62,501 nucleotides of DNA from a virus. Positions 35,901 through 50,538 of this stretch are shown piece after piece. Both the position numbers and the translations under genes were made by a program. The notes under the pieces are model-generated. The model ran no database searches, had not been told where the DNA came from, and saw nothing but the letters and a program-made list of their open reading frames with translations. The stretch is from the IMG/VR virus record IMGVR_UViG_3300027741_000064, positions 1 through 62,501 of that record, one strand, 5' to 3'. Position 1 is the first letter of the stretch, and each line of letters starts with the position of its first letter.

Positions 35901-35926
35901 GCTTACAATCATGGCAGGTGAACGAA

Positions 35927-36694
35927 ATGTCAGAGAACATTTATCAATTTAATGGTACGCTGTTGGTCAGCGTGCCGGATGGTGCGCTGAACACAAGCGC
36001 TGCACCAATCGCATTCCCGGGTAGAGGATACACTAGCTATGGTGCGCCAGTGCTGCAGAATACCCTGTGGACCATGCAGAACTTTGCTGGCACGGTAGCT
36101 CCAACTCCGCTGCTCCAGGGCGTGGAATGGTACAACAGCAACACCAACGAGCTGCAGGTATACACTGGCAGCACATGGTCAGTGCTGTTCAAGGACAATC
36201 AAGATAACATGCCAGCTGCCAATAACTCATACGATCTCGGATCAAGCAGCAAGAAGTTTGCTGCTGTATACGCAACCACTTTCAACGGCACTGCCACGCA
36301 GGCACTGTATGCTGACGTGGCAGAGCGCTACGCAGCTGATGCTGTGTTGGAAGTAGGTGATGTTGTTAGGCTTGGAGGAGAAGCTGAGATAACCCTGACC
36401 ACAGTTGACTGTGATACCAACGTGTTTGGTGTCATATCAGACAAGCCAGCCTACAAGATGAACAGCGACGCTGGTACAGATAAGACACATCCATATGTGG
36501 CACTGCTGGGACGTACTCCCTGCAAGGTAGTAGGGCGCACAGCCAAAGGTGATCGCTTGGTAGCCAGCAGCATCCCAGGTGTGGCACGCGCAGCAGATGG
36601 TGGTGAGGATCCTCACAGCATCGTTGGACGTGCGCTAGCAGCCAAAGAAACCGAAGAAGTTGGTTTGGTAGAGATAGTAATAGGACGAAGCTGA
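35927..36694 (+). CDS. Tail fibre-like protein with YADVAERY C-terminal domain
   Basis: The start at 35927 has AGGTG 7 bases upstream; an in-frame GTG 9 bases earlier is less likely. The protein is 255 residues. The N-terminal half contains VEWYNSNTNELQVYTGS, a fibre-type strand also related to the 663-1709 protein. Residues 95-120 (YDLGSSSKKFAAVY) lead into a C-terminal domain with ALYADVAERYAADAVLEVGD, VFGVIS and GRTPCKVVGRTAKGDRLVAS. That domain type ends many phage fibre proteins. It is probably a receptor-binding or fibre-tip component. Confidence 0.65.
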   Translation: MSENIYQFNGTLLVSVPDGALNTSAAPIAFPGRGYTSYGAPVLQNTLWTMQNFAGTVAPTPLLQGVEWYNSNTNELQVYTGSTWSVLFKDNQDNMPAANNSYDLGSSSKKFAAVYATTFNGTATQALYADVAERYAADAVLEVGDVVRLGGEAEITLTTVDCDTNVFGVISDKPAYKMNSDAGTDKTHPYVALLGRTPCKVVGRTAKGDRLVASSIPGVARAADGGEDPHSIVGRALAAKETEEVGLVEIVIGRS

Positions 36695-36695
36695 T

Positions 36696-37646
36696 ATGAC
36701 CTATGTCGCTGGTGGACTGATACAAGCAGCTGATTTTGACGGCTTCTCTGGACCTTTACCGCCCTCACAGGCCTATACCAGCCCATCAGCAGCAGCTGAT
36801 CACATGGCAGCGCTGATTGGCGTAGGCTATGGCGACAGAGGTTATGGTCAGACCAGCACCACTCTGCCAGCTGTGACAGCGGGACAGATAATCTCGGCTG
36901 CGACATGGAATAATCTCTTGAACACCATGGGAACCAGCAACACTCATCAAGGCAGTGGCTTAACCCTGCAGCCAACCGTTGCTACAGGCGGTAGGATCAT
37001 CGCACAGGATGGTAACAATGGCACTGTTAGCATAAGCTCTCTGATCAACACTCTGGACAGCAACAGGCTCAATGCCAATGTAACCGAAATGACGGTCAGC
37101 AGCGTGCTGATCAGCAGCACTAGCACACCATGGGGCGGCGTGATAAATCACGTTTTCACGGTTAATTTTGGCACCGAGGATGCGGCTAGGTACTTCTTCA
37201 ACAGCGGCGGACAGATAAGGTTAAGTGGCGCAAACGTTGGCGGCACCACCCCGGATGCGGCTAGCTGGGCATCACTGCTGAGCCAGATGGGAACCATCAA
37301 GTTTGGAGCTACTACCACTACCTACACCGGGTCTGGTGGTACTGTGGCCAGCATAGGTTACTATGGAATGACTGGCAGCAACCAACAGCTGTTCATACAC
37401 TATGGATCTGGCACGCACTATGCTGGTAATTATTATGCCATACAGGCCTATCGCAGCAGCTACACGGGAGCCAATGGCGGCAATGGCAGCCTTTTAACCT
37501 TCACTGCTACCTTCAACAACACATCGGGCTATTATTATCATGGTAGCACGGTCAATGGTACTACCACTAGCTACGTAGACCAATACAAGGCCACTGGTGT
37601 GCTGAGCATCCAGAATCCAAACTTCACGACCACAACACCCCTCTGA
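36696..37646 (+). CDS. Gly/Ser/Thr-rich tail fibre or adhesin-like protein
   Basis: A 316-residue protein starting one base after the previous stop. The first 100 residues contain a small helical region (TAGQIISAATWNNLLNTMG). The rest is low-charge and rich in Gly, Ser, Thr, Asn and Tyr, with YYHGSTVNGTTTSYVDQY near the end, typical of beta-sandwich fibre or adhesin domains. I recognise no family. The position after two fibre-like genes suggests a surface-exposed virion protein. Confidence 0.5.
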   Translation: MTYVAGGLIQAADFDGFSGPLPPSQAYTSPSAAADHMAALIGVGYGDRGYGQTSTTLPAVTAGQIISAATWNNLLNTMGTSNTHQGSGLTLQPTVATGGRIIAQDGNNGTVSISSLINTLDSNRLNANVTEMTVSSVLISSTSTPWGGVINHVFTVNFGTEDAARYFFNSGGQIRLSGANVGGTTPDAASWASLLSQMGTIKFGATTTTYTGSGGTVASIGYYGMTGSNQQLFIHYGSGTHYAGNYYAIQAYRSSYTGANGGNGSLLTFTATFNNTSGYYYHGSTVNGTTTSYVDQYKATGVLSIQNPNFTTTTPL

Positions 37647-37650
37647 TATC

Positions 37651-37679
37651 TTGACACTGTGAGCATTTGCAGCCACAAT
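37651..37679 (+). promoter_or_regulatory. Possible host-type promoter before accessory operon
   Basis: TTGACA (37651-37656), 17-base spacer, CACAAT (37674-37679). The -35 is perfect and the -10 is weak. It would separate the accessory operon from the fibre genes. Confidence 0.35.
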
Positions 37680-37705: not shown

Positions 37706-38062
37706 ATGGATGAAAGACTAGAGAAAGCCCTGGAATTCAGCAGGTATCGTATCAGCCTTTTCAATCGCAAAGAAGACCTCAAACTGAGGCTCAAGAACAT
37801 GCTGCTTCATGCCACAGACGGTGGTATCTTCACCATTGATCAACAGCTCATCACCTTCGTAGAGATGTTGGTCAGCAAGGGTAGGATGCAGGCTGTGCTG
37901 CTTGATGACAACGGTAATCCGATTGAAATCGCTGATCTAGCTCAGTTTGCTGACGACATAATTGGCAAGTATTTTGAATCGACCAATCTCTATTATGCGG
38001 AATATGCCAAGCTTCGCAGTGCCCGCACGGTAAAGAGCATATACGAGTTCGTTGATGACTGA
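37706..38062 (+). CDS. Conserved T4-type phage protein of unknown function
   Basis: The start at 37706 is chosen for the GGAG 7 bases upstream; the longer frame from a TTG lacks a site. The protein is 118 residues and mostly helical. The pattern LEKALEFSRYRISLFNRKEDLKLR, GGIFTIDQQLITFVEMLV and KYFESTNLYYAEYAKLRSAR occurs in unnamed proteins of T4-like marine phages. It starts an unbroken chain of overlapping genes, overlapping the next by 8 bases. Confidence 0.6.
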   Translation: MDERLEKALEFSRYRISLFNRKEDLKLRLKNMLLHATDGGIFTIDQQLITFVEMLVSKGRMQAVLLDDNGNPIEIADLAQFADDIIGKYFESTNLYYAEYAKLRSARTVKSIYEFVDD

Positions 38063-38963
38063 TTATCCCAGAGAATTTAGGCTGGATCGCGGTTTCGTGA
38101 TGTTTGCCTACAACAACTCCAACATAGACTACGCATCGCTGGCATTGGTAAATGCTCTGCTGATCAAGAAAAACCTCAAGACCAATGCCGTGGCCCTGAT
38201 AGCAGATCACAATGCTGTGTATCACCTGGAGTCGCTATACAACACTGAAGTCATCAGCAGGGCTTTTGATCGCATCATCATTGACGAGCCCACGGACATC
38301 AATGTTGGCAAGCGCAGGTTCCATGATACTAGGTACACAGCGTTTACCGACGGCTATCGCAACACCAATCGCGCCAGTGTCTATGATTTAAGCCCTTTTG
38401 AAGAGACCATGCTGATAGACAGTGACTATCTCATGCTTGACTCTAGCTTTGACATGGTCTGGGGCAGTGTCGAGGGCATGATGTGCAATAGGCACACCAG
38501 AGACTTGGACCACGGTGTAGACAAGTTTGGCTTTGACAATCGCTTCAACGATATGAGCATACCGCTCTATTGGGCTACAGCAGTCTATTTCCGCAAGACT
38601 GACAGGAGCAGGTTGATATTTGAGCTTATGAACTTCATCAAGGAGAACTATGCCTATTATCAGTATCTCTATAGGTTCAATCACAGCGGCTACTTCCGCA
38701 ATGACTATGCTCTGAGCATGGCACTGCACATGACCAACAATCTCATTGAGCATGACAACATATCAGCACTGCCAGTTGACCACATCATGTTCAGCATGGA
38801 AAACGATGAGATGCACGGTTTCAAGGATGGATGTTGCTTGATGACCAGTGAGCCCACGCAGGGTGATTTCCGTATCCATAACGTTGACTACAACGTGCAT
38901 GTGATGAACAAACGTGCTATACTGCGACTCAAGGATGACTTCATTGCCTACGCTCTCAGCTGA
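38055..38963 (+). CDS. Glycosyltransferase-like protein (GT-A fold)
   Basis: The ATG at 38055 overlaps the previous stop; the protein is 302 residues. After GFVMFAYNNSNIDYASLALVNAL comes a GT-A type layout. YDLSPFEETMLIDSDYLMLD (residues about 113-132) contains the D-x-D motif that holds the sugar-nucleotide metal in GT8-like enzymes. Conserved aromatic and Asp/Asn segments follow (FRNDYALSMALHM). The gene downstream is a paralogue with the same landmarks (TPYEETIKLDCDMLFF). The donor and acceptor are unknown. It could be a fold relative without transferase activity. Confidence 0.55.
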   Translation: MTDYPREFRLDRGFVMFAYNNSNIDYASLALVNALLIKKNLKTNAVALIADHNAVYHLESLYNTEVISRAFDRIIIDEPTDINVGKRRFHDTRYTAFTDGYRNTNRASVYDLSPFEETMLIDSDYLMLDSSFDMVWGSVEGMMCNRHTRDLDHGVDKFGFDNRFNDMSIPLYWATAVYFRKTDRSRLIFELMNFIKENYAYYQYLYRFNHSGYFRNDYALSMALHMTNNLIEHDNISALPVDHIMFSMENDEMHGFKDGCCLMTSEPTQGDFRIHNVDYNVHVMNKRAILRLKDDFIAYALS

Positions 38964-39825
38964 CATCAACCATAGACCTCGCGGTTTCTTTACCTTCGCG
39001 CAGAACAACGAACGCACGGATTATCTGCGCATGGCCTATGCACTAGCCCTGAGCCTCAAGGTGTCGCAGCAGAGTGTGCCCTATCTCACTGTTGGCATAA
39101 CGCCTGGCATGACAGTTCCAGATCAATATGCTTGGGCCTTTGACAATATCATAGAGATTCCTTGGGGAGACCATGCGGCAGACAGCAGCTGGAAGCTGGA
39201 GAACGAGTGGAAGTCCATATACATGACGCCCTATGAAGAGACTATCAAGCTGGACTGTGACATGCTGTTTTTCACAGATCTCGGTAGGATCTGGGATCAG
39301 CTGAGCCAAAGAGATTTCGTGATATGTAACCAAGTGTTGAACTACAAGTCAGACGTAATAACCAGCGACGTCTATCGCAAGGTATTCACAGACAACCAGC
39401 TACCAAATGTCTACACGGCATTCATGTATTTCAAGAAGACCACAGAGACACATGAGATATTTGACTTAGCTAAGTTCGTTTTCAGGAACTGGGAAACCAT
39501 GTTCCTGGAGACCATGAAACCAGAAAATCGGCCTAACTATGTCAGCACTGACGTGGTTTTTGCTCTGGTGCTCAAGCTGTTGGACCTGGACCAACACTGC
39601 TATACAGCACGAGCAATACCTACCTTCACGCACATGAAGAGCCAACTGCAGGGATGGGGCACAGGTATCACAGAAGACTGGACCAAGCACATGCCAGTGT
39701 TTTTCAATCCTAGATTGGAATGCAAGATAGGAAATCATCTGCAGTTCCATCCACTGCACTACCATATCAAGGGATTCGTAACCGACGAGATATTGGAATA
39801 TTATGAGCGAGCAGCAGGAAGATAA
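38935..39825 (+). CDS. Glycosyltransferase-like protein, paralogue of upstream gene
   Basis: The ATG at 38935 (296 residues) lies within the end of the previous gene; the ribosome site is poor. It shares the same order of motifs with the upstream protein: GFFTFAQNNERTDYLRMAYALALSLK, then MTPYEETIKLDCDMLFFTDL with a D-x-D, then TAFMYFKKT and STDVVFALVLKLL. Conservation suggests gene duplication of a GT8-like fold. The D-x-D is intact (DCD). It overlaps the next gene by 23 bases. Confidence 0.55.
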   Translation: MTSLPTLSADINHRPRGFFTFAQNNERTDYLRMAYALALSLKVSQQSVPYLTVGITPGMTVPDQYAWAFDNIIEIPWGDHAADSSWKLENEWKSIYMTPYEETIKLDCDMLFFTDLGRIWDQLSQRDFVICNQVLNYKSDVITSDVYRKVFTDNQLPNVYTAFMYFKKTTETHEIFDLAKFVFRNWETMFLETMKPENRPNYVSTDVVFALVLKLLDLDQHCYTARAIPTFTHMKSQLQGWGTGITEDWTKHMPVFFNPRLECKIGNHLQFHPLHYHIKGFVTDEILEYYERAAGR

Positions 39826-40360
39826 ACAGGCCTGGGTTTGGTATGACAGGGTTACCCTGCAGCTGAAGCATGTGAGCTTCAATCTGAATGGTCACCAAGG
39901 CAATGATCTGGAAAAGATGCCGATGCACTATGACAGCGCATTGGACATCGCCAACGGCAAGAGCAGGCTTTTTGAATACGAGCTGGTTGATGCGCAGGGA
40001 GAGCTAACTGTGCGTTACAAGAGGCACAAGATTCCTTTCAAGAAGTTCTGGCAACTGGTTGATCTCAATATAGAGAACAAGTTTGATGGATATTTCAACG
40101 ACGCTGAATCTGCTCGCAGTCCAGTGCAGATATCAGATCTTTCTCCTGCTGGCTTTACCGTTGGTGTGCGTGATATGGTACGCAACATAGTGTTCTATAT
40201 CACCATGAAGAACGATCCAAACTATCTCATCAAAAAGATCGATCTCTATCCACTTGCCGAGGATGCTGCTAGCACCACTGGTATCTTCGTGCCAGTTGAT
40301 CTTGATGAGCCGTATAGCATATATGTGAAGTATGACGAAGTGAGGTACGATGCTACATGA
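39803..40360 (+). CDS. Uncharacterised protein in glycosyltransferase cluster
   Basis: A 185-residue protein that begins WVWYDRVTLQLKHVSFN after a short charged start. It looks beta-rich with few helices. No catalytic motif is visible. It lies between the two GT8-like genes and the array of SYDEP-type proteins, overlapping both neighbours. It could be a virion protein or an accessory component of the cluster. Confidence 0.5.
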   Translation: MSEQQEDKQAWVWYDRVTLQLKHVSFNLNGHQGNDLEKMPMHYDSALDIANGKSRLFEYELVDAQGELTVRYKRHKIPFKKFWQLVDLNIENKFDGYFNDAESARSPVQISDLSPAGFTVGVRDMVRNIVFYITMKNDPNYLIKKIDLYPLAEDAASTTGIFVPVDLDEPYSIYVKYDEVRYDAT

Positions 40361-41255
40361 GATGAACGAATTCGACTTTGTGTTCCTAAGCTATGATGAA
40401 CCCAATGCCGAGATTCTCTATGCTGAGTTGGTGAACAAGGTACCGTGGGCCAAGCGAGTTCATGGTGTGCGCGGTTTTGACTCAGCACACAGGGCCTGTG
40501 CTGACATAGCTGATACTGATTTCTTCGTGACTGTGGACGGCGATAATCGCGTGCATGACAGCTTCCTCAACACCAAGATAGAGATAAACAATGGGCAAGA
40601 AGACCATGCATGGACATGGGCAGGTCGCAATCACGTTAATGGTTTGGTCTATGGCAATGGTGGACTGAAGCTGTGGAGCAAACAGTTTGTGCGCAGCATG
40701 AACAGCCACGAGAACAGCAACAGTGATGCTGGCAAGGTTGACTTCTGTTGGAACATGAGATACCACGAAGTGTTTGGCACACACAGCACCAGCATGATCA
40801 ATGCCAGCCCCTATCAGGCCTGGCGAGCTGGTTATCGCGAAGGCGTGAAGATGAGCCTAGAGACTGGACGCAAGGTTCCATATCAGGATTTTAGCAGGAA
40901 GATCTGGATCTATAATCTCCACAAGCTGCTGATCTGGTGCAGTGTTGGAGCTGACGTGGAGAACGGCATATGGAGCATGCTGGGTGCTAGGCAGGGCGCA
41001 CACGACTGCAATCTCACAGATGACGATCACACCAAGATCAGTGACTATGGTTGGTTTGAAGAGAAATGGCACAGCACCAAGGACTGTGATCCGCAAGCAC
41101 AGTGCCTCATGCTAGGGCAGCTGCTGAGGCAGAAACTTGGCATAGAGATAGCTGACTTAGATGCTGATCAAAGCAGATTCCACAAGCGCATATACATAAA
41201 TCCACCCAGGCCCATGGTCAGCTATGAGCAGATCAAACATCTATCGGCAGTCTGA
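40350..41255 (+). CDS. SYDEP-family glycosyltransferase-like protein
   Basis: A 301-residue member of a paralogous set in this window. Motifs in order: FLSYDEPNAE (residues 12-21), AKRVHGVRGFDSAHRACA, FVTVDGDN (a D-x-D, about 60-67), VYGNGGLKLWSK, YQAWRAGYREGVKM, then LGARQG. The start resembles GT2-type GT-A domains, with a D-x-D for metal and nucleotide binding. The donor sugar and acceptor are unknown. The start at 40350 has GAGG 4 bases upstream; the ATG at 40362 is the alternative. It overlaps the previous gene by 11 bases and the next by 1 (TGATG). Confidence 0.6.
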   Translation: MLHEMNEFDFVFLSYDEPNAEILYAELVNKVPWAKRVHGVRGFDSAHRACADIADTDFFVTVDGDNRVHDSFLNTKIEINNGQEDHAWTWAGRNHVNGLVYGNGGLKLWSKQFVRSMNSHENSNSDAGKVDFCWNMRYHEVFGTHSTSMINASPYQAWRAGYREGVKMSLETGRKVPYQDFSRKIWIYNLHKLLIWCSVGADVENGIWSMLGARQGAHDCNLTDDDHTKISDYGWFEEKWHSTKDCDPQAQCLMLGQLLRQKLGIEIADLDADQSRFHKRIYINPPRPMVSYEQIKHLSAV

Positions 41256-43102
41256 TGTTTGACATCTTTTTCGTGAGCCGACATCCCAGCGATCGTTCAC
41301 TTCACTCTGAGTTCTGCAGGCGTTTTCCGGCTGCTATGCTGCTGCGAGGTCAGGACAACGTCTGTGATGTGATCAACTCTGCGAGGACTCGCAGCCTAAC
41401 CAGCATGTATTGGTTGGTAACTGATGATGCGATTCTGCCAGATGAAATGGATCTAACTTGGAAACCAGAAACCTGGGACAGCCACTATCCGCACCATTGG
41501 CCAACAGCAGACCAACTTGACGAGTCTGGTAAAGAATTCTCTGGGGCCTATCTCATGCCAAGGTCTTATAGACCAACCGCTGAAGAGCTATCATCTGGCA
41601 TACTGCGCGAAGTCAAACATATGACAGGTCATCTGACAGTCAGACCCTATGACATTGTCTTAGCCAGCCGGCATAGCAAGAACTATCAGGCATTTGAGGA
41701 TTTTGCTCTGCGATATCCCAAAGCCAACTATCTGCCAGACCAGACCAGCATTGAATCAGCAGTGGCTGAAAGCAAGGAGATCTGCCGTACACGCATGTAT
41801 TGGTTGATCACCGATGATGTGTTCCTACCTGATGAGCTTGATCTCAGCTGGAGACCTCCGGTCTGGGATCGGATCTATACACATGTTTGGCCAACGCAGC
41901 CTACTTCGGATCCGCAATCATGCGGGTCGTCTGGTGTTTACCTCATTCCATGCAGCGTTGAACGAGATTTCCTCGATCAGTGCAAGCATGTACCAGCTCC
42001 GAGCTGTTCAGTGATACCCTATGATCGCATCATGAGCCTCAGCACCACATCTGATCCCTGTGACAAGGTAGTGCATAACAACGATCTTTTTGATGCATGC
42101 GTACAAGCCAAGGAGCTAGCTGTCACGGAGATGCATTGGCTGGCGCTGGGAGACATAAACATATTGCCAGATTTTGATCTCAGCTGGAGACCAGCAGAAT
42201 GGGACCGTGACTATGTTCACATATGGCCAACCATAGGTCTGGACGGTCAGATAACCTATGAACAGGAAGGTATCTATCTCATACCAGGTGATCACACGCC
42301 TCGAGCTTCTAGGTCTGGAAGCTATCTAGGTCGCAGCAAGACCATGGATCAGCCTGCTGCTATACAGCTGCCATTTGACATATTCTTCATCAGCTACGAC
42401 GAAAGCTATGCTGAAGAAAACTGGCAGGATCTGGTTGAGCGATATCCTAGGGCCAAGAGGGTCCATGGAATCAAGGGTATACACAACGCACATCGATGCT
42501 GCGCCGGTCAGTCGCGTACCAGCATGTTCTATACCGTTGATGCAGACACGGTGTGCAGTTCCGGCTGGGATTTCAGCTATCGTCCTCCAAGGCACGACAG
42601 GGATTATCTACATGTTTGGTACAGTGAGAATCCCGTGAATGGTCTCTGCTATGGCTGGGGCAGCATCAAGCTGTGGCCCAAGATGGCAGTGCTGGAGTTT
42701 GATCAAAACTGGTTGGATTTCACTACTACAGTGGGCAACATCAAGGTAATACCAGAGACCGTAGCCGAGACCAGATATAACAGGGATCAGCTCACTACTT
42801 GGCGCAGCGCCTTCCGTGAGAGCGTGAAGCTATGCCAGAACGTGGCCATGGGTGAAACTGGAGAAAGCCTGGATAGGCTGCTGGTATGGCTGAACGCTGA
42901 CAGTGCCGCAGACTGGTCTGATGACAGCAGGCAGGGTGCTGCCGATGGCCTGAGATTCTATCAGGAGTCGCAGGACTCGTCTGACACACCTCTGACACTG
43001 ATCAATGATTTTGATTGGCTCGCAGATAGATTCAATAATCGCATTAGAGACCTGGACGACTTTGATCGAGATGATCTGCTGGACCTGCTGGGAACGGATT
43101 GA
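41255..43102 (+). CDS. Four-module SYDEP/SRH repeat protein
   Basis: A 615-residue protein built from four related modules starting near residues 1, 131, 255 and 372. Each opens like FDIFFVSRHPSD or FDIFFISYDESY, followed by a metal/nucleotide-type aspartate stretch (YWLVTDDAILPDEMDL, YWLITDDVFLPDELDL, FYTVDADTV) and an aromatic W-P-T/W-Y-S end. Modules 1-3 are shorter and lack the full YGNGG and WRAGYREG parts. Module 4 matches the single-module paralogues and continues into their C-terminal region. The first modules may bind rather than transfer sugars. Confidence 0.55.
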   Translation: MFDIFFVSRHPSDRSLHSEFCRRFPAAMLLRGQDNVCDVINSARTRSLTSMYWLVTDDAILPDEMDLTWKPETWDSHYPHHWPTADQLDESGKEFSGAYLMPRSYRPTAEELSSGILREVKHMTGHLTVRPYDIVLASRHSKNYQAFEDFALRYPKANYLPDQTSIESAVAESKEICRTRMYWLITDDVFLPDELDLSWRPPVWDRIYTHVWPTQPTSDPQSCGSSGVYLIPCSVERDFLDQCKHVPAPSCSVIPYDRIMSLSTTSDPCDKVVHNNDLFDACVQAKELAVTEMHWLALGDINILPDFDLSWRPAEWDRDYVHIWPTIGLDGQITYEQEGIYLIPGDHTPRASRSGSYLGRSKTMDQPAAIQLPFDIFFISYDESYAEENWQDLVERYPRAKRVHGIKGIHNAHRCCAGQSRTSMFYTVDADTVCSSGWDFSYRPPRHDRDYLHVWYSENPVNGLCYGWGSIKLWPKMAVLEFDQNWLDFTTTVGNIKVIPETVAETRYNRDQLTTWRSAFRESVKLCQNVAMGETGESLDRLLVWLNADSAADWSDDSRQGAADGLRFYQESQDSSDTPLTLINDFDWLADRFNNRIRDLDDFDRDDLLDLLGTD

Positions 43103-43103
43103 G

Positions 43104-43793
43104 ATGTATGACATAGTTTTTATCAGCTACGAAGAATCAAATGCTGCTGCTAATTGGCAGCTGCTCAAGGACAGATTTCCTGCTGCCAAGAGGTTGCATG
43201 GCATCACAGGGCTTCATCAAGCACACATCACGGCTGCTAACATGGCCCAGACTGACATGTTTTATGTGGTAGATGGTGATGCTGTGATTGAACCCGACTT
43301 TGTTTTTGACCACGTGGTTCCGGAACATCAACTGGATCATGTGCATGTGTTCCGTGCTAGGAATCCAATCAATGACCTAGTCTACGGCTACGGTGCTGTA
43401 AAGCTACTGCCAGTGGCCGAGGTCAAGCGATTGGTGGAGAGAGACTTCAAACCGGACATGACCAGCAGCATCAATCGCAAGTACAAGATCATACATCAGC
43501 TATCAAATGTCACAGCGTTTAACACTGATCCCTACAACACTTGGCGCAGCGCTTTCAGAGAATGTGCCAAGCTGGCCAGCGGCGTCATAGATGGGCAGGT
43601 TAACATCGAGACAGAGCAGAGACTAGAGATTTGGTGCACCAAAGGCAGTGGCAGGGACTATGGCTATTGGTGTCTGCTTGGTGCGCAGGCCGGCAGGCAG
43701 TTTGGCCTGGACAGCCGAGGCACTGATCAGCTGATGAAGATCAACGATTGGACATGGCTTCGCCAGAGATACGAGGAGAGCGGACTGAAATGA
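43104..43793 (+). CDS. SYDEP-family glycosyltransferase-like protein
   Basis: A 229-residue single-module relative. FISYEESNAAANW, AKRLHGITGLHQAH and FYVVDGDAVIEPDF carry the same landmarks, with D-x-D (DGD). Later parts include YGYGAVKLLP, YNTWRSAFRECAKL and LLGAQAGR. It is shorter than the 300-residue members. The ATG lies two bases after the previous stop. The start was chosen over a longer frame that would run into the previous gene. Confidence 0.6.
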   Translation: MYDIVFISYEESNAAANWQLLKDRFPAAKRLHGITGLHQAHITAANMAQTDMFYVVDGDAVIEPDFVFDHVVPEHQLDHVHVFRARNPINDLVYGYGAVKLLPVAEVKRLVERDFKPDMTSSINRKYKIIHQLSNVTAFNTDPYNTWRSAFRECAKLASGVIDGQVNIETEQRLEIWCTKGSGRDYGYWCLLGAQAGRQFGLDSRGTDQLMKINDWTWLRQRYEESGLK

Positions 43794-44659
43794 GCGAGTA
43801 TTGGCCCAGAGATATAGATGCTTTCTACATCAGCTATGACGAACCAAACTGCGAAGACAACTGGGCCAGGGTGCTGGACATGCTACCTCAAGCCAAGCGC
43901 ACGCACGGAGTCAAGGGATTTGATGCTGCACACAAGGCCTGTGCCGAGGCCAGCCAGACAGAGAGATTCCTCACCATTGATGGTGATAACTGGCTGTTGG
44001 CTGACGGATTAGACACAAAGCTAGACGACACTGGAATGGAAGACGTGGTCTTCAGCTTCAAGAGCAGGAATGCGGTCAATGGTCTTGAATATGGTAACGG
44101 AGGTCTAAAATGCTGGCGCAGAGATGTGTTGCTGGCTAGCAACACACATGAGAGCAGCGACAACACAGACTTCTGCTGGGATCTGCGCTACTATCAAGTT
44201 GATGTGTTGAGCAGCATTGGCGTTAACAACGCCACGCCTTACCAGGCTTGGCGAGCCGGTTATCGCGAAGGCGTGAAGATGAGCTATGTGAATGGCAAAC
44301 CCATGTCTGATCCAATCGCCGATCGCAAGCTGATAGCTCACAGTAACCATAGCAAGCTGCAGATATGGATGACCTTGGGCAGGGACGTGACCAACGGAGC
44401 ATGGGCCATGCTGGGAGCAAGGCAAGGCTTCTGCGATCTCTATAGCGGTACCATAGGCAACACTGTGATCAATGACTATGATTGGTTCGCAGAGAAATGG
44501 AAGAAGATCCAACACCTCAACACAGATGCTGCGCTATCTCAGCATGCTCGCAGACTTCGAGACGAGTTTGATTTTTTCGTTCCGGAACTTGATCAACTGA
44601 CCAGCCAGTGGTTCAAGAAAACCTATGTGCATCCGCAGCGACGAGGTCTGATGCTATGA
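43790..44659 (+). CDS. SYDEP-family glycosyltransferase-like protein
   Basis: The 289-residue member closest to the 40350-41255 protein: YISYDEPNCEDNW, AKRTHGVKGFDAAHKACAEA, FLTIDGDNW, YGNGGLKCW, YQAWRAGYREGVKM, then MLGARQG. The two share almost all landmark residues, so a duplication within this phage lineage is likely. GAGGAG lies about 11 bases before the ATG, which overlaps the previous stop (ATGA). Confidence 0.6.
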   Translation: MSEYWPRDIDAFYISYDEPNCEDNWARVLDMLPQAKRTHGVKGFDAAHKACAEASQTERFLTIDGDNWLLADGLDTKLDDTGMEDVVFSFKSRNAVNGLEYGNGGLKCWRRDVLLASNTHESSDNTDFCWDLRYYQVDVLSSIGVNNATPYQAWRAGYREGVKMSYVNGKPMSDPIADRKLIAHSNHSKLQIWMTLGRDVTNGAWAMLGARQGFCDLYSGTIGNTVINDYDWFAEKWKKIQHLNTDAALSQHARRLRDEFDFFVPELDQLTSQWFKKTYVHPQRRGLML

Positions 44660-45417
44660 TCAAGTCTCCTCCTAGGAGATTGATACGATCGCTGCTGGGA
44701 CACCTAGACCAGGAGGGTCTGTCTCTGCCTCTGTTGCGGTTCATGCTAGGCAACTTTGACAGCTATGATGATCACTTGGTCATGCTCAAGCAGGTCATGG
44801 CAGTGTCGCAGCTGGATACTGAGCTGGTTGGCAAAGATGCATGGAGCGAAGGTCAGCTGCTGAGCAAGCATTGGCTGTGCGAACAGCTATCAAACCTGGA
44901 CAAGAACCTCGGAGAGATATGGATAGCCTGTGGATGGATAGGATCTCTGGCTTTGATGATCGACTGTTATAGACCACATCTGCGTTTCAAGAGCCTGCGC
45001 AGCTTTGATATTGACAGTCGCTGCGCTGATCTAGCTGACGCGCTTAACAAGCGCATGCTGCTGGATGATTGGCGTTTCAAGGCCAGCACTGCTGACGTGA
45101 ACGATCTCACCTACGATGACCACCTGTGGCTCACCAGCAGGTCACAGAATAGGACTGAGCGCATGGTTGGAACCGCAGACACCGTGATCAATACCAGCTG
45201 TGAACATCTAGCTGATTTTGACTTTTGGTTTGGTCGCATACCAACCGGAAAGCTCGTGGTGCTTCAATGTAGCAATCACGACAGCTATGCCGGACATGTC
45301 AATCACATGGACAGCATGACTGAGCTGGCCATGAGAGCTCGATGCCGCCGCATCATGTACAAGGGCACGCTGGACTGCGGGCCCTACCAGCGCCACATGT
45401 TGATAGGAGTGAAATGA
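44656..45417 (+). CDS. Methyltransferase-like protein
   Basis: A 253-residue protein whose ATG overlaps the previous stop (ATGA), with GAGG 9 bases upstream. The centre reads like a class I SAM fold: IWIACGWIGSLALMID (glycine region), then SLRSFDIDSRCADLADALNK (acidic end of strand 2), then TADVNDL and ADTVINTSCEHL where motif IV would be. The glycine motif is unusual (CGWIGS instead of GxGxG). The next gene has a paralogous domain with the same landmarks. Substrate is unknown; whether it is an active methyltransferase needs testing. Confidence 0.5.
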   Translation: MIKSPPRRLIRSLLGHLDQEGLSLPLLRFMLGNFDSYDDHLVMLKQVMAVSQLDTELVGKDAWSEGQLLSKHWLCEQLSNLDKNLGEIWIACGWIGSLALMIDCYRPHLRFKSLRSFDIDSRCADLADALNKRMLLDDWRFKASTADVNDLTYDDHLWLTSRSQNRTERMVGTADTVINTSCEHLADFDFWFGRIPTGKLVVLQCSNHDSYAGHVNHMDSMTELAMRARCRRIMYKGTLDCGPYQRHMLIGVK

Positions 45418-46694
45418 ACATGCGATTGAACGACAAGGAACTGCTGGTCAAGATCAAGAACGATAACCGTTTGCTTGAATTTAGGCATCTACTGACAGCT
45501 GAGGACCGAGCAACATTTGCAGACGTGTACAAGTGGTCGCCTGCTCTCATCGGCATATTAGCCAGTGACCATAGCTTCTTCGCACTGCTCAACAGGTTAA
45601 ATCCAAACGATCGCAAAGCGATTGGGTTAGTCTGCGTTTGGTCTCCAGAGTTGATAGGAATATTGGCCAGCGACCAGAGCGGAATCTTTGCGCTGCTGAA
45701 AAGGTTAGATCAGACCGATCGCAAAGCGGTTGGGTCAGTCTGTGCTTGGTCTCCGGAGTTGATAGGAATATTAGCCAGCGATTACAGCATCTTTGTGCTG
45801 CTTAACAAGCTAGATCAGACCGATCGCAGAGCTCTAGCGTCAGTCTGTGATTGGTCTTCCGCACTAATTGGTATCATGACCAAGAACGAACATGCACCGC
45901 TATCTTGGTTGAATAAGCTCAGCCGAAGCGAACTTGATGGTTGCCGAGATGTCTGGAACTGGCCCATTTATATTCTAGACAGGCTCTATGTTGAACCTCA
46001 GCACATCTTGCCCTTCTATTACATGTGGGACCTAGTTGCTGATCATGCCGAGTTCATCAAGAACTATTTCCAAATAAACGATAACCAACTATATGACAAA
46101 AACCACATGATAGATGCTTGGTCGCGAGGACAGGTCAACAGCAAGGCTTGGCTATGCGCCACGGCTGCTATACTTGGCATCAAACTTGGCAAAACCTGGG
46201 TACTCTGCGGATGGCTAGGAACGTTGAGCTATTTTATGTTGGTACGTAGGCAACAGCTGGGAATCACACACATACGTAGCTTTGACATAAACCCCGATTG
46301 CTGCCAACTAGCTGATATACTAAACAAGAATTTTGTCAAGGATGGGTGGAAGTTCAAAGCCACAACACTTGATGTCAACAGTCTGTCATATGACAATTTT
46401 TGTTATCAGACAGTGAAGCACGACGGTACCTTGATAAATGCTCTCGGATCAGCTGATACCATCATTAACACCAGCTGCGATCACATGGGAGAAGATAAGA
46501 CCTGGTGGGATCGCATACCAAATGGTAAGTTGGTAATACTACAGAACAATGATTGGCATGAGAATGACCAACACAACAATAGCGTGAAGGATTTAAGTGA
46601 GTTCAAGAGACATTATCCAATGAGCGAATTGCTTTATGAAGGGGAACTAGACTGTATATTGTATACGAGATTCATGCTCATAGGACGCAAATGA
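45414..46694 (+). CDS. Methyltransferase-like protein with N-terminal tandem repeats
   Basis: A 426-residue protein. The C-terminal half (residues about 215-426) is paralogous to the previous protein (VLCGWLGTLSYFML, IRSFDINPDCCQLADILNK, ADTIINTSCDHMG). The N-terminal part (residues 41-183) holds four tandem units of about 36 residues, each W-S-P-x-L-I-G-I-L-A-S-D followed by a Leu-rich helix and D-R-K/R-A. Units 2 and 3 are nearly identical at DNA level, so duplication was recent. Such repeats suggest a helical solenoid. The start follows GGAG and overlaps the previous stop. Confidence 0.55.
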   Translation: MNMRLNDKELLVKIKNDNRLLEFRHLLTAEDRATFADVYKWSPALIGILASDHSFFALLNRLNPNDRKAIGLVCVWSPELIGILASDQSGIFALLKRLDQTDRKAVGSVCAWSPELIGILASDYSIFVLLNKLDQTDRRALASVCDWSSALIGIMTKNEHAPLSWLNKLSRSELDGCRDVWNWPIYILDRLYVEPQHILPFYYMWDLVADHAEFIKNYFQINDNQLYDKNHMIDAWSRGQVNSKAWLCATAAILGIKLGKTWVLCGWLGTLSYFMLVRRQQLGITHIRSFDINPDCCQLADILNKNFVKDGWKFKATTLDVNSLSYDNFCYQTVKHDGTLINALGSADTIINTSCDHMGEDKTWWDRIPNGKLVILQNNDWHENDQHNNSVKDLSEFKRHYPMSELLYEGELDCILYTRFMLIGRK

Positions 46695-46936
46695 TCACAG
46701 ACCTAACTCTGCTATCAACAAGACAGCTGCAGACCGAAGCAGCTCGTGCCCTGTCAGCTGGTGATGGTTTTGGGAATCATGACTTGGTGAGATTCAACAA
46801 GGCAGCACATCATGACAGCCATGCTTGGTATCGCGCGGTGATAGAATGGTACGTGAGCGTTCACGGTGATCTGCCCAGCAGGGTTGGTCCAGGCATGACA
46901 GTGAAGCTGCTGGTGGAGGATGAACATGATCTATGA
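46691..46936 (+). CDS. Small protein before radical SAM enzyme
   Basis: An 81-residue protein coupled by ATGA to the upstream gene and overlapping the radical SAM gene by 11 bases. It has a helical N-terminal half (RQLQTEAARALSAGD) and an aromatic patch (HDSHAWYRAVIEWYVSVHG). Its position before a SPASM radical SAM enzyme makes a substrate role possible, but it lacks the Cys- or Gly-rich core expected of known modified peptides. It resembles no family I know. Confidence 0.5.
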   Translation: MITDLTLLSTRQLQTEAARALSAGDGFGNHDLVRFNKAAHHDSHAWYRAVIEWYVSVHGDLPSRVGPGMTVKLLVEDEHDL

Positions 46937-48026
46937 TTACTCTGAGATTACTAGCGTGCACCTCGAACTTACCAGCAAGTGCAATGCCAGCTGTCCCATG
47001 TGCGCACGCAACAAGTTTGGCGGGCCAGAGAATGAGTTCCTGCCTCAAGCAGAACTGAGCCTGACTGATATACAGCGCATCATGCCCGAGGCATTCGTGA
47101 GGCAGCTGAGCAGGCTCTACATGTGCGGCAACTATGGAGATCCCATCGTGGCCAATGACATGCTGGAAGTCTATCAGTGGCTGCGCAAGGTCAATCCCAG
47201 CATCAAGCTGGGACTGCACACCAATGGTGGTGCCAGGACTCCCACATGGTGGAGCAATCTGGGCATTGTGCTCAGTGCCAAGGGCGATTACGTGAAGTTT
47301 GGCATAGATGGCTTGGAGGATACCAACCACATCTATAGGCGCGGTACCAACTGGTCCAAGATCATGGACAATGCCAAGGCCTTCATAGCTGCAGGCGGTA
47401 TTGCCCAGTGGGAATACATCGTGTTCAAGCACAACGAACATCAGGTGGATGAAGCCCGTGCGCTGAGCGAGCAGCTGGGCTTCGCACAGTTCCGCACCAA
47501 GAAGACAGGTCGCTTCTTCAGCAACACTAGGTTACAAGGCAAGGACAGCCAAGAGGTATGGAACCGCAATGGCATGGTGGAGTATCTCTTGGAGAAACCA
47601 ACCAACGAGCTCTATCACAATGACAGCTTGATCAAGGAACAGAGCCTGGTGGACCGCTTTGGCAGCATGCAGGCCTACGTGGATCAAACCTGCGTGAAGT
47701 GCAAGGTTGGCGAGGAAAAGAGCCTGTACATCTCAGCAGAAGGTCTGGCATTTCCTTGCTGTTGGACGGCTAACCAGCTGTATGTTTGGTATTGGCCCCA
47801 CAAGCAGAGCGAGATGTGGACGCTGCTGGATCATGACACTCACAACGTGAACGCCCTGGAAAACACACTAGAATCTATAATAAATGGTCCATATTTCAAT
47901 AAGATAGCTGATAGCTGGTCAAAACCCAGCATCAGTGATGGCAAGCTGAGAGTATGTGCCAAAACCTGCGGAACTGGGTTCGATCAGTTCGCTAGCCAAT
48001 TCACGGAAGCTGTAAATAGATCATGA
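46926..48026 (+). CDS. Radical SAM/SPASM domain protein
   Basis: The start at 46926 (366 residues) is preferred because GGAGG lies 6 bases upstream; the ATG at 46920 abuts that site. The radical SAM cluster motif is C19-x3-C23-x2-C26 (CNASCPMC). MCGNYGDP (about residue 66) and the GIDGL segment fit the TIM-barrel core. The C-terminus has a SPASM-like set of cysteines (CVKCKVGEE, FPCCW, CAKTCGTG) for auxiliary clusters. Enzymes of this kind modify peptides or proteins or carbohydrate-like substrates. The substrate is unknown. It overlaps the next radical SAM gene by 4 bases. Confidence 0.8.
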   Translation: MIYDYSEITSVHLELTSKCNASCPMCARNKFGGPENEFLPQAELSLTDIQRIMPEAFVRQLSRLYMCGNYGDPIVANDMLEVYQWLRKVNPSIKLGLHTNGGARTPTWWSNLGIVLSAKGDYVKFGIDGLEDTNHIYRRGTNWSKIMDNAKAFIAAGGIAQWEYIVFKHNEHQVDEARALSEQLGFAQFRTKKTGRFFSNTRLQGKDSQEVWNRNGMVEYLLEKPTNELYHNDSLIKEQSLVDRFGSMQAYVDQTCVKCKVGEEKSLYISAEGLAFPCCWTANQLYVWYWPHKQSEMWTLLDHDTHNVNALENTLESIINGPYFNKIADSWSKPSISDGKLRVCAKTCGTGFDQFASQFTEAVNRS

Positions 48027-49417
48027 CCAACCAATTACCAAGTGACACTTTCTGCGCTCTACCCTGGGTGCATCTCAGCAGCCGACCAGATGGAACCATG
48101 CGCGTCTGCTGCACAGCCAACGCCAGCAGCGTGCAGGATCCAGACAGCACCAAGAAGCTGAGCGGTGGACAGATAGGCGTGCTGCGCACTGCTGATGGCA
48201 CTCCTGCTAACCTCAACAACACCACGCTGATGGACGCATGGAACAATGATTACATGCGCAACGTGCGCAAGATGATGCTCAGGGGCGAACAGCCTCCCAG
48301 CTGTGTGAAATGCTACAAGGAAGAATCTTCTGGTGTGCAGAGCAAGCGCAACTGGGAGACTCGCTACTGGGTTGAGCAGCTGGGATTGGATGACATCATA
48401 GGTGATACCACCGAGGATGGCGAAGTCAGCCCGAGAATACGCTATCTTGATCTGCGCCTGGGCAGCAAGTGCCAGCTGGCCTGCGTGATGTGTAGCCCGC
48501 ATGACAGCAGCGGTTGGATCAAGGAATGGACAGAAATCTATCCACAGATAACCAATGACCGACTCAAGCAGAGCTGGGGCTGGGCTGACAAAGGCAAGCA
48601 GCACGGCGCTAGCTACAACTGGCATCTCAACAATCCTGTTTTCTGGGATCAGCTCTACGATCAGATACCTCACATGAAGCAGCTGTATTTCGCAGGCGGT
48701 GAGAGCACCATCATCGAAGAACACTACACGCTGCTGGAGGAGGTCATACGCCGCGGCTATGCCCCGCAGATAGAGCTTAGGTACAACAGCAATGCAGTTG
48801 AGCTGCCACAGCGTCTGTTCGACTGCTGGAGCCAGTTCCGAGAAGTCAAGTTCCACTTCAGCGTGGACTGCATAGGTGCCAAGAATGAATATATTCGCTA
48901 TCCCAGCAACTGGGATAACATGGTCACTCACATGCATCTGTTGGATCAGACTCCCAACATCATAGTGACCACTGCTGTCACGGTAATGGCACTCAACATC
49001 TATTACCTGCCAGACGTGATCAAGTGGAAGCTCACGCAAGGGTTCGTGAAGTTCAACGAATGGCCCAGCGGCGGTGGCATGATCAACTGGCATCTAGCCT
49101 ATTGGCCTCCTCAGCTCAACGTCAAGGTGCTGCCCAAGTGGGCCAAACAGATGGTGCGAGCCAAGTTTGAAGAGCTGTTCGTTTGGTTGGAAGATAATTG
49201 GCAGCTGTGCACCGGACTGCCAGAAGGCATGGACAAACACACCGTGCTGAACACTGGATACGGTATAAAGAGATTACGCAGCCTATTGGATTTCATGGAC
49301 AAGGAAGATTGGAGCGAGCGCATGCCTGAGCTCAGGGAATGGATACGAGTCCTTGACAAGACACGCGGATTGGATTTCAAAGCCACTTTCCCTGAGATGA
49401 GTGGGCTCTTAGATTGA
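48023..49417 (+). CDS. Twitch-type radical SAM protein
   Basis: A 464-residue second radical SAM enzyme, coupled to the first by ATGA. It starts with FCALPWVHLSSRPDG and a CC pair (Cys29-30), as in twitch/SPASM-type proteins where an auxiliary cluster domain sits at the N-terminus. The main motif C150-x3-C154-x2-C157 (CQLACVMC) is followed by FAGGESTI and a FSVDCIG segment. Such proteins occur in T4-like phages with unknown targets. The pairing and gene order suggest a two-step modification together with the upstream transferases. Confidence 0.78.
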   Translation: MTNQLPSDTFCALPWVHLSSRPDGTMRVCCTANASSVQDPDSTKKLSGGQIGVLRTADGTPANLNNTTLMDAWNNDYMRNVRKMMLRGEQPPSCVKCYKEESSGVQSKRNWETRYWVEQLGLDDIIGDTTEDGEVSPRIRYLDLRLGSKCQLACVMCSPHDSSGWIKEWTEIYPQITNDRLKQSWGWADKGKQHGASYNWHLNNPVFWDQLYDQIPHMKQLYFAGGESTIIEEHYTLLEEVIRRGYAPQIELRYNSNAVELPQRLFDCWSQFREVKFHFSVDCIGAKNEYIRYPSNWDNMVTHMHLLDQTPNIIVTTAVTVMALNIYYLPDVIKWKLTQGFVKFNEWPSGGGMINWHLAYWPPQLNVKVLPKWAKQMVRAKFEELFVWLEDNWQLCTGLPEGMDKHTVLNTGYGIKRLRSLLDFMDKEDWSERMPELREWIRVLDKTRGLDFKATFPEMSGLLD

Positions 49418-49451
49418 GGTAAACGATCATGCAATTTGGACTGCCTGGAAC

Positions 49452-49459
49452 CATAAATA
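49452..49459 (+). promoter_or_regulatory. Late promoter (CATAAATA)
   Basis: Predicted start near 49465, giving a leader of about 24 bases to the ATG at 49489. This decides the start of the next gene: an upstream in-frame ATG at 49429 lies before the promoter. Confidence 0.6.
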
Positions 49460-49488
49460 GTAGCGTAAGTTCACATGGGATCACTGTA

Positions 49489-49857
49489 ATGGCAAGTTCC
49501 CCCAAGAAGCCAGTTGATAAAGCCGCTGATGCGGTCTGGGAAGACATATTCAACAATCTTACCATTGAGAACGAACCTCCCACTAGATACATCAAGAGCG
49601 TGATCATACAGACCAAAGACGGGTCAGTGCTCAAGGTAAGTGGTCGAAGCTTTGCTGAGATCATAGAGCAAGAACGCCATCTCTCTCCTGGACAGAGCGA
49701 GATATACAGCTGCAGGATGACCATCAATTTTCCCAAGCTGCGTGCGGATGTGGAAACATGGTGCGGTGATCTGTTTACCGAGTTAAACACATCTGACAGC
49801 TACAAGGTGACGGTTAAATCCAAGCGCAAAGCTGCCAAGAAGACAAAGCATGATTGA
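49489..49857 (+). CDS. Uncharacterised T4-type phage protein
   Basis: 122 residues from the ATG after the late octamer; a start at 49429 (142 residues, with GAGG upstream) remains possible for read-through mRNA. The core reads VIIQTKDGSVLKVSGRSFAE followed by EIYSCRMTINFPKLRADVE, with a Lys-rich C-terminus (KSKRKAAKKTKHD). Similar small proteins are found in T4-like marine phages, without known function. Confidence 0.6.
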   Translation: MASSPKKPVDKAADAVWEDIFNNLTIENEPPTRYIKSVIIQTKDGSVLKVSGRSFAEIIEQERHLSPGQSEIYSCRMTINFPKLRADVETWCGDLFTELNTSDSYKVTVKSKRKAAKKTKHD

Positions 49858-49887: not shown

Positions 49888-50538
49888 ATGACAGTCAAGC
49901 TCATAGCCATATCACAACCGACCATTGACGAATGCACCACAGCTGAAGAGCTGGTGGCATACTGTGCCAGGGTCTCAAACCCAGCCAACCAAGACAACCA
50001 TGGTACCAGCGCCAAGCTGATACGATACCTCATAAAAAACGCACATTGGTCTCCCTTGGAGATGGTACACATGACCATGGAGATCAACACCACACGTGAC
50101 ATAGCAAGGCAGATACTGCGACATCGCAGCTTCAGCTTCCAGGAGTTCAGCCAGCGCTATGCCGACCCTACCAAGAGCCTGGGTTTCGTAACCAGAGAAG
50201 CACGCCTGCAGGATGCCAAGAACCGGCAAAACAGCATCGAAGTTGACGATGCTGAACTGGCTGATCTGTGGACTGGCATGCAGGAGTTAGCCATAGAAAA
50301 TGCGCAGAGGCAGTATACCAAAGCAATCAACATGGGTATTGCCAAGGAACAGGCCCGTGCGCTGCTGCCAGAAGGTCTAACAGAGAGCCGTATCTATATG
50401 GCAGGCAGCCTCCGCAGCTGGGTACACTACTGTGATCTGCGCCGTGCTAACGGTACCCAGAAAGAACATCGCGAGATAGCAGAAGCCTGCTGGAGCATCG
50501 TGGTTGATCAATTCCCCATGCTAGGACAAGGAGATTGA
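49888..50538 (+). CDS. thyX: Flavin-dependent thymidylate synthase ThyX
   Basis: A 216-residue enzyme that makes dTMP from dUMP using FAD and methylenetetrahydrofolate; this supports phage DNA synthesis. The signature RHRxxSxxxxSxRY is present as residues 78-91 (RHRSFSFQEFSQRY), with Ser88 at the conserved position. The length matches ThyX. Many large phages carry thyX instead of the T4 thymidylate synthase td. It starts without a visible ribosome site, two genes before a nucleotidyltransferase. Confidence 0.95.
   Translation: MTVKLIAISQPTIDECTTAEELVAYCARVSNPANQDNHGTSAKLIRYLIKNAHWSPLEMVHMTMEINTTRDIARQILRHRSFSFQEFSQRYADPTKSLGFVTREARLQDAKNRQNSIEVDDAELADLWTGMQELAIENAQRQYTKAINMGIAKEQARALLPEGLTESRIYMAGSLRSWVHYCDLRRANGTQKEHREIAEACWSIVVDQFPMLGQGD

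Follow-up and report, generated by a model that had tools for sequence, protein, structure and literature searches.

A fixed glycosyltransferase core and a changeable radical SAM cassette behind the tail genes of a huge phage: a candidate operon for adhesin glycosylation

The uncultured viral contig IMGVR_UViG_3300027741_000064 (IMG/VR; the 62,501 nucleotides analyzed here are called the window) carries a packed run of 13 co-directional genes, g1 to g13, at positions 37706-49417 of the plus strand, behind a set of tail genes. Relatives of its first part, namely g1, two GT8-like genes (g2 and g3), g4 and a member of a transferase family labeled SYDEP (g5), recur in the same order in viral contigs, and this conserved order is beyond chance. 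The remaining genes encode three further SYDEP proteins (g6-g8), two methyltransferase-like (MT) proteins (g9 and g10), a small protein (g11) and two radical S-adenosylmethionine (SAM) enzymes (g12 and g13). We propose, with about even confidence, that the run is a cytosolic glycosylation-plus-tailoring operon that builds and trims a protein-bound glycan on tail adhesins.

A conserved core and its cassettes

The strict order g1-g2-g3-g4-SYDEP was found in all 73 g1-anchored loci with at least 3.5 kb downstream of the anchor. Among the 54 g3-anchored loci with room, 49 had the full order, four were without a g4 match, and in one (L298) g1 came after g3. For these counts 6 of 79 g1-anchored and 10 of 64 g3-anchored loci were dropped, L049 and L008 were left out, and each anchored set amounts to 48 distinct loci by anchor DNA, the sets partly sharing contigs with each other and with a scan of viral contigs by the SYDEP alignment. 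The profile hidden Markov models (HMMs) had been built on SYDEP-anchored loci, and the g1, g3 and g12 anchors were used to escape that selection. A first-pass annotation of the window had grouped the genes into one functional unit, by inference; the relatives do occur together in strict order and are not scattered, in agreement with this grouping.

The SYDEP scan itself yielded at least 586 relatives among 600 stretches; scans of this kind return the best-scoring loci, and weaker relatives lie outside the counts. In the 80 best SYDEP-anchored loci, many of them cut short and with the window itself subtracted from the totals, our HMMs matched the g2/g3 family in 77, g4 in 78, g1 in 66, the MT family in 23 and g11 in 5, and the two radical SAM models, which cross-hit, matched in 29 and 30. 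Over the viral sets, 163 distinct g3-SYDEP cores were counted, a core being a g3-type gene with a SYDEP gene at most 1.5 kb away and distinctness being judged by the DNA of the SYDEP open reading frame (ORF). Where 6 kb of sequence followed the core (66 cases), it held a further SYDEP gene in 47, a SYDEP array in 29, a radical SAM gene in 42, an MT gene in 20 and none of these in 2. The cassette order of the window (SYDEP, array, SYDEP, SYDEP, MT, g11, g12, g13) is also seen in L265, L273, L276, L277, L330 and L335, among others. All 15 g12-anchored loci, some of which are cut at the contig end, contain g11 and MT genes, 14 contain a SYDEP gene and 12 a g13-type gene.

The SYDEP family

SYDEP is a GT-A-fold family that is unnamed in Pfam and in PHROGs. 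In an alignment of g5, g7 and g8 with the last domain of g6, 41 columns are invariant. An AlphaFold2 model of g5 (predicted local distance difference test score, pLDDT, 90.1; predicted template modeling score, pTM, 0.87) predicts the GT-A fold for the family. The first-listed PDB match of this model in Foldseek is a glycosyltransferase of virus PBCV-1 (2p6w, described as acting in capsid glycosylation; E 9.6e-5), and the top match in VIA is B4GALNT1 (Z 10.9, 3.1 Å across 139 residues). In the viral structure library BFVD, two proteins from uncultured phages match best, with a template modeling (TM) score of 0.66 of the query. By sequence, the SYDEP profile had no match among PDB chains and g5 matched no Pfam family, and of 67 SYDEP members compared with Pfam six matched Glycos_transf_2 (best E 0.0061), two Glyphos_transf (9.3e-5), one Glyco_tranf_2_3 (0.002) and one DUF6492 (0.0036).

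The DxD motif, the metal and nucleotide-sugar site of GT-A-type enzymes, is present in 414 of 415 distinct full-length SYDEP domains, and its two aspartates, D59 and D61, are invariant in 67 aligned sequences. Together, fold and motif bear out the earlier description of these proteins as transferase-like. The same annotation counted four SYDEP members; there are indeed four genes, and one of them, g6, turns out to be a four-unit protein with three short units and one full domain. Short units encoded in one ORF together with a full domain have DxD in 0 of 111 cases (one gapped at that place), and in g6 the place is taken by VTDDA, ITDDV and ALGDI; over all 134 short units, a total that includes pieces cut at contig or frame ends, 12 keep the motif. 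Arrays of the g6 type contain GT-A half-domains with the metal site lost, and the DxD-less short units of g6 probably bind acceptor or glycan and do not catalyze. Similar arrays of short units plus one full domain are present in L265, L267 and L326 (the g6 array lies at 41255-42322).

A quick midpoint-rooted tree, in which many branches are weakly supported, divides the family into two branches, each with viral and cellular members. In this tree g5, g6, g7 and g8 each cluster with their positional counterparts from other phages. A recent tandem duplication of the four genes was therefore dropped as an explanation; grouping by position places the split further back.

Other core proteins

The proteins g2 and g3 are paralogues (22% identity, E 1e-11), and their profile, A3, matches glycogenin (E 1e-7) at profile positions 4-106 only, in line with the transferase nature first ascribed to them. 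When the 58 family members were compared with Pfam at E 0.01, no GT8 model was among the matches, and two members matched Mannosyl_trans3. In the same 58 sequences D107 of the DxD motif is at least 90% conserved and D109 is invariant. From these data g2 and g3 appear to be distant glycogenin-type (GT8-like) proteins.

The predicted model of g4 is all-beta (pLDDT 80.6, pTM 0.55); Foldseek returned nothing from the PDB below E 0.05, matches to fibronectin-type beta-sandwiches being poor, and the PDB sequence match, to chloramphenicol acetyltransferase, is weak (E 0.069). Predicted folds, available for g5 and g4, leave the idea of a common pathway standing. For g1, a "DNA methyltransferase" match (phrog_1530, E 0.0038, 1 of 39 members) was rejected as chance, and the presence of a g1-like protein in cyanophages was not confirmed by profile search of P-SSM2, S-PM2 and HTVC008M.

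Cassette proteins

The first-pass annotation recognized two radical SAM enzymes, and both score above cut-off: g12 with PF04055 (35.5 bits, cut-off 29.5; motif CNASCPMC) and g13 with NF033640, N_Twi_rSAM (411 bits, cut-off 170). In g13 the CxxxCxxC motif is CQLACVMC, at residue 150. The SPASM model PF13186 reaches 25.8 bits in g13 and 18.5 bits in g12 (cut-off 21.5). The name of the N_Twi_rSAM model implies no function, and we know of none for it.

The two proteins called methyltransferase-like in that annotation, g9 and g10, are paralogues with 40% identity; their assignment as methyltransferases is weakly supported. Glycine-rich CGW-x-G and SFDID patterns can be seen by eye, one of 19 family members matches Methyltransf_25 of Pfam (E 7e-4), and the family had no sequence match in the PDB. 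Before its methyltransferase-like domain, the N-terminal part of g10 (45414-46000) holds ELIGILASD-type repeats, recognized by eye and some 35 residues long. For g11, the counts with our HMM in the SYDEP- and g12-anchored sets are given above. Pfam matches such as those to PAP_central, INTS5_N and Htt_N-HEAT_1 were rejected as chance.

Linkage to tail genes and nature of the virus

Of 119 distinct g1 loci, 110 have a tail gene in the 10 kb before g1; where the upstream sequence measures at least 6 kb, the figure is 82 of 87 (loci with less than 1.5 kb upstream were dropped from this count). The immediate upstream neighbor of g1 is an ORF matching u2 or u3, the two genes that precede g1 in the window, in 88 of the 119. 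The ORFs in this position have a median Ser, Thr, Gly and Asn (STGN) fraction of 0.415 against 0.244 in the background, and a Lys, Arg, Asp and Glu (KRDE) fraction of 0.10 against 0.235, the background being all six-frame ORFs of at least 300 residues in L005-L084, spurious ones included. Of the three targets named in the first-pass annotation, a virion protein, a surface glycan and a small molecule, this fixed linkage to tail genes favors the virion protein. In the window, u2 is tail-fiber-like, with two unnamed PHROGs outscoring the tail-fiber family phrog_19602, and u3 (S 10%, T 15%, G 14%, N 7%) matched no Pfam family and a single, marginal unnamed PHROG. Downstream, a YHYH-domain protein is possibly a second virion or receptor-binding protein; the run is thus flanked by adhesin-like genes upstream and by the YHYH protein downstream.

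The gp6 gene of the window, used as a positive control for tblastn, has matches in 276 of 50,697 phage records. Its top matches are Sinorhizobium phage Phosso and Agrobacterium phage Atu_ph07 (~40% identity), followed by RaK2/GAP32-type phages; in the best 30 of the 276, from which this ranking was read, nearly all records measure 337-490 kb and two are shorter. Most of the 276 matches are cyanophages, which rank lower. A contig of 216,498 bases holds g3, g9 and g12 at 100% identity, with equally spaced SYDEP domains, and g3 relatives were found on contigs of up to 607,744 bases. These contigs and the listed gp6 relatives place the window in a huge phage of T4-type build.

Organization of the run and its flanks

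The positions of the genes are given in Table 1. From g1 to g13 the 12 junctions measure -8, -29, -23, +1, -1, +1, -4, -4, -4, -4, -11 and -4 bases, sizes that depend on gene starts chosen among listed alternatives; the widest gap is one base and all other junctions overlap, as had been noted from the start. The same annotation spoke of twelve genes; 13 are present, and its own list (1+2+1+4+2+1+2) also adds up to 13. Position 49417 is no natural end: the run goes on in the same direction for six further genes, none set apart by more than 30 bases, as far as 52827, and the operon probably extends to that point. The sigma-70-like promoter match before g1 is weak (23 such sites found, 20.4 expected), as is the terminator-like hairpin past the run (21 found in the region on both strands, 12.8 expected). 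The T4 late promoter TATAAATA occurs twice in the window, in neither case close to the run.

Table 1. Features of the run and its surroundings in the window
Feature	Position	Strand	Basis or remark
Lysozyme-containing hub protein	17221-20154		upstream T4-type tail module
gp6	20638-24042		upstream tail module
3701-residue virion structural protein	24035-35140		phrog_10938; directly after gp6
u1, tail gene behind the 3701-residue structural protein	35287..35883	+	phrog_11259 (function-unknown PHROG), E 6e-68
u2, tail-fiber-like, possible acceptor	35918..36694	+	phrog_19602 tail fiber protein, E 1.5e-11
u3, adhesin-like, charge-poor, possible acceptor	36696..37646	+	Ser/Thr/Gly/Asn-rich
Sigma-70-like promoter match before g1	37651..37679	+	TTGACA-17-CACAAT, 10/12
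g1, 118-residue conserved core protein	37706..38062	+	family A5; PHROG matches marginal
g2, GT8-like glycosyltransferase (putative), g3 paralogue	38055..38963	+	in profile A3
g3, GT8-like glycosyltransferase (putative)	38935..39825	+	profile A3 against glycogenin
g4, all-beta core protein (predicted)	39803..40360	+	predicted model
g5, core SYDEP protein, GT-A fold, DxD	40362..41255	+	AlphaFold2, Foldseek, VIA
g6, SYDEP array, three short units and one full domain	41255..43102	+	profile search
g6 short unit 1	41255..41524	+	VTDDA at DxD place
g6 short unit 2	41648..41953	+	ITDDV at DxD place
g6 short unit 3	42080..42298	+	ALGDI at DxD place
g6 full SYDEP domain	42374..43045	+	SYDEP profile, E 2.5e-86
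g7, SYDEP protein	43104..43793	+	SYDEP profile, E 9.5e-96
g8, SYDEP protein	43790..44659	+	SYDEP profile, E 7.8e-78
g9, methyltransferase-like	44656..45417	+	40% identity with g10; motifs by eye
g10, methyltransferase-like, N-terminal repeat region	45414..46694	+	g9 paralogue
g11, 81-residue protein between MT genes and radical SAM pair	46691..46936	+	own HMM
g12, radical SAM enzyme	46926..48026	+	PF04055; CNASCPMC
g13, N-twitch radical SAM enzyme	48023..49417	+	NF033640, PF13186; CQLACVMC
d1	49429..49857	+	also after the cassette in related loci
ThyX-like gene (presumed)	49888..50538	+	sequence motif
APS-kinase-like P-loop kinase	50540..51013	+	PF01583, 55.1 bits, cut-off 21.1
d3	51010..51429	+	co-directional ORF
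Cytidylyltransferase-like	51429..51818	+	PF01467, 19.8 bits, just below cut-off 21
YHYH-domain protein	51811..52827	+	PF14240, 53.2 bits, cut-off 25
Terminator-like hairpin past the run	52913..52933	+	hairpin search

No ORF listed for the window is longer than that of the 3701-residue structural protein (24035-35140). A gene at the position of u1 in Phosso looks similar by eye. The gene at 49888-50538 we take to be ThyX-like from a sequence motif. The adenosine 5'-phosphosulfate (APS) kinase-like and cytidylyltransferase-like genes (50540-51818) might provide activated precursors.

Relatives in cultured phages and in cells

The DNA of the window had no match in a near-identity search of phages, and tblastn of g5, g9, g3, a g1 and the g7-type SYDEP protein of L028 gave no match in the 50,697 phage records. 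With g13 as query, three of these records matched at 21-28% identity, two of the matches covering 93% of g13. Single relatives of these genes had been thought to occur in T4-like phages; the SYDEP, g2/g3, g1 and MT profiles were, however, absent from all seven cultured phages searched with these four (Phosso, HTVC008M, P-SSM2, S-PM2, Atu_ph07, RaK2 and K566). Phosso, Atu_ph07 and K566 do carry radical SAM genes. Phosso has several after its tail genes, in a stretch without the glycosyltransferase core (L164, 19871-32396), and in the fetched stretch of Atu_ph07 (L168, 1-3070) two annotated ones follow tail genes. Vibrio phage K566 (255 kb; L170, 11549-15951), one of the three g13 matches, has three, two of them adjacent and the third one gene away.

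A scan of cellular genomes found 101 SYDEP relatives among 126 stretches, and 78 loci were kept. Several of these (e.g., L085-L087 and L089-L093) hold the phage core and resemble contigs of phages that were binned with bacteria. In two Bdellovibrionota loci, L105 and L106, a SYDEP gene stands beside an MT gene and a pair of the g12-g13 type, and no u1-u3-type gene is present in the stretch. Their neighbors, read by eye, are family-2 glycosyltransferases, and in L106 also UDP-galactopyranose-mutase-like and membrane glycosyltransferase-like proteins; both look like surface-glycan loci. By eye again, a Photorhabdus SYDEP gene (L114) lies amid glycosyltransferases, together with an ABC-transporter-like protein, and one in Ruegeria (L102) stands two genes after a glycosyltransferase. 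These cellular neighborhoods support a glycan-related role and do not support a protein acceptor. The idea of a contractile injection system context in Photorhabdus and Streptomyces was dropped, the neighbors in L114 being glycosyltransferase-like; it was judged on this one Photorhabdus locus, and Streptomyces L123 gave no readable neighbors. Lone SYDEP-family genes are common in Actinomycetota (Streptomyces and Nocardia, L121-L162), where the other operon families were not in the stretches covered.

Proposed function and alternative explanations

In the proposed pathway, the core glycosyltransferases would start a sugar chain at Ser, Thr or Asn residues of u2 or u3, and perhaps of the YHYH protein, and lengthen it before virion assembly with nucleotide sugars of the host. 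The cassette would then lengthen the glycan, methylate it and edit it (or the peptide) by radical chemistry, and would thereby determine which chemical groups the host-binding tip exposes. The data show a GT-A fold with intact DxD, the radical SAM motif and the fixed linkage; acceptor, sugar and reaction order are inferred. The largest hydropathy over 19-residue windows in g1-g13 is 1.47, with no obvious membrane segment in any of the 13 proteins, which argues against a membrane transferase or flippase among them. Direct cytosolic glycosylation of adhesins is favored by these soluble transferases, by the lack of a visible lipid-carrier step, by the fixed place of the run after adhesin-like genes and by the STGN-rich, charge-poor neighbor. 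The nucleotide sugars are probably supplied by the host, since of two sugar-nucleotide families tried, PF00483 was found in one and PF16363 in four of seven records, contigs that may be fragments, and both families were missing from the window and from the 216-kb contig.

Several observations weigh against this proposal. The cellular relatives suggest a surface polysaccharide, not a protein, as acceptor. In the VIA comparison of the g5 model, MobA and IspD-type nucleotidyltransferases do as well as GT-A enzymes, with Z close to 10, and thymidylyltransferases take ranks 2 and 4 in the Foldseek list of this model from the PDB, so that the fold alone is no proof of glycosyl transfer. The methyltransferase identity of g9 and g10 is, as described, weakly supported, and the proposal leaves g1 and g4, both conserved in the core, unexplained. 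Nine of the 119 g1 loci have no recognized tail gene upstream, and only 25 of the 119 upstream ORFs exceed the 95th STGN percentile of the background. In the cultured jumbo phages Phosso and Atu_ph07, baseplate and tail genes are related to those of the window, but no SYDEP or GT8-like relative is present.

The main alternative, which we consider rather unlikely on balance, is that the operon, in the course of infection, remodels a surface polysaccharide of the host (O-chain, lipopolysaccharide core or capsule) and so blocks superinfection or hides the cell. Relatives of SYDEP, of the MT genes and of the radical SAM pair do stand in surface-glycan-like loci of cells. A flippase or lipid-linked transferase would fit this function, and hydropathy, the one measure applied, shows no membrane protein among the 13; transferases of the lipopolysaccharide core can be soluble, however, and the missing membrane proteins are compatible with this explanation too. 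The gene order is tied to adhesin-like tail genes, and a neighborhood of structural genes would be an odd place for superinfection exclusion. Remodeling of the host is how glycosyltransferase-rich clusters have been read in pelagimyophages (PMC7029224) and cyanophages (PMC7824862).

Peptide modification offers another explanation: the radical SAM and MT genes might mature a tail protein or a small protein in the manner of a ribosomally synthesized and post-translationally modified peptide, the glycosyltransferases acting separately. Phosso and Atu_ph07, with several and two radical SAM genes respectively, show that such genes can stand near tail genes without these glycosyltransferases. In the lineage of the window, however, the cassette is physically merged with the glycosyltransferases, and the same radical SAM pair occurs in the glycan-like loci of two Bdellovibrionota, which makes this explanation improbable. 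Phage glycosyltransferases often act on DNA, and a ThyX-like gene follows the run; the operon might protect the phage genome by way of a hypermodified base or glycosylated DNA. We regard this as very improbable, given that a thyX relative lies on the opposite strand in many related loci and that the linkage is with tail genes; no DNA-modification gene was recognized among the 13, and none was searched for specifically.

Returning to adhesin glycosylation, a broader picture can be put forward tentatively. Uncultured huge phages may stably keep a machine for the glycosylation of tail adhesins that consists of a fixed core (g1, two GT8-like proteins, g4 and one SYDEP protein) and an interchangeable cassette (SYDEP proteins, DxD-less arrays, methyltransferases and radical SAM enzymes) shared with the surface-glycan-like loci of Bdellovibrionota, and that gives the receptor tip a changeable coat. 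If adhesins are glycosylated in this way, receptor-binding proteins would include glycoproteins, and their chemistry would not be apparent from the protein sequence; this would matter for predicting host range and for the recognition of phages by defenses. The operon supplies specific genes with which adhesin glycosylation can be tested.

Comparison with known systems

The PBCV-1 capsid glycosyltransferase (2p6w, 2p72) is, like g5, a virus-encoded GT-A enzyme. However, identity in structural alignments is 12-14%, the virus infects algae, and the acceptor is a capsid protein, not a tail protein. In mycobacteriophages, Freeman et al. are said to have reported in 2023 that virion glycans sit on capsid and tail-tube subunits. 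A glycosyltransferase of mycobacteriophage Che8 is among the BFVD matches of g5, at rank 22 and weakly (E 6.7e-4, TM 0.34), and we know of no radical SAM or MT cassette in that system. Phosso and Atu_ph07 share with the window the succession of baseplate wedge, giant structural protein, tail genes and radical SAM genes, whereas relatives of SYDEP, the GT8-like proteins, g1 and MT are missing there by profile.

In cyanophages and jumbo phages, glycosyltransferase clusters have been read as modifying capsule or O-antigen (PMC7824862). As in the window, paralogous glycosyltransferases occur there with HIGH-type nucleotidyltransferases, but the terms "radical SAM" and "SPASM" are absent from the main text of that paper. 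Moraphages, another lineage of huge phages, have four glycosyltransferase groups in their core, and the same paper cites virion glycosylation (PMC12619734).

Among the literature searched, the closest published system is the host recognition cluster (HRC) of pelagimyophages, a variable island beside the tail-fiber genes of T4-like aquatic phages, located between VrlC and gp14 (PMC7029224). GT8 is the most represented glycosyltransferase family in the HRC, two close genomes differ by radical SAM cassettes, and the glycosyltransferases are read as modifiers of the host O-chain (PMC7029224). The two systems are alike in being variable islands by tail-fiber genes with glycosyltransferases and radical SAM cassettes. 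They differ in that the SYDEP, g2/g3, g1 and MT profiles found no match in HTVC008M, the single pelagimyophage searched, and in that the present system keeps a core of five genes and has jumbo phages as its best-listed relatives by baseplate. No description of the core or of the SYDEP family was found in the literature searched, most subscription papers being outside it. That glycosyltransferases and radical SAM genes stand near phage tail fibers had thus been noted before, whereas the strictly ordered five-gene core is newly seen here.

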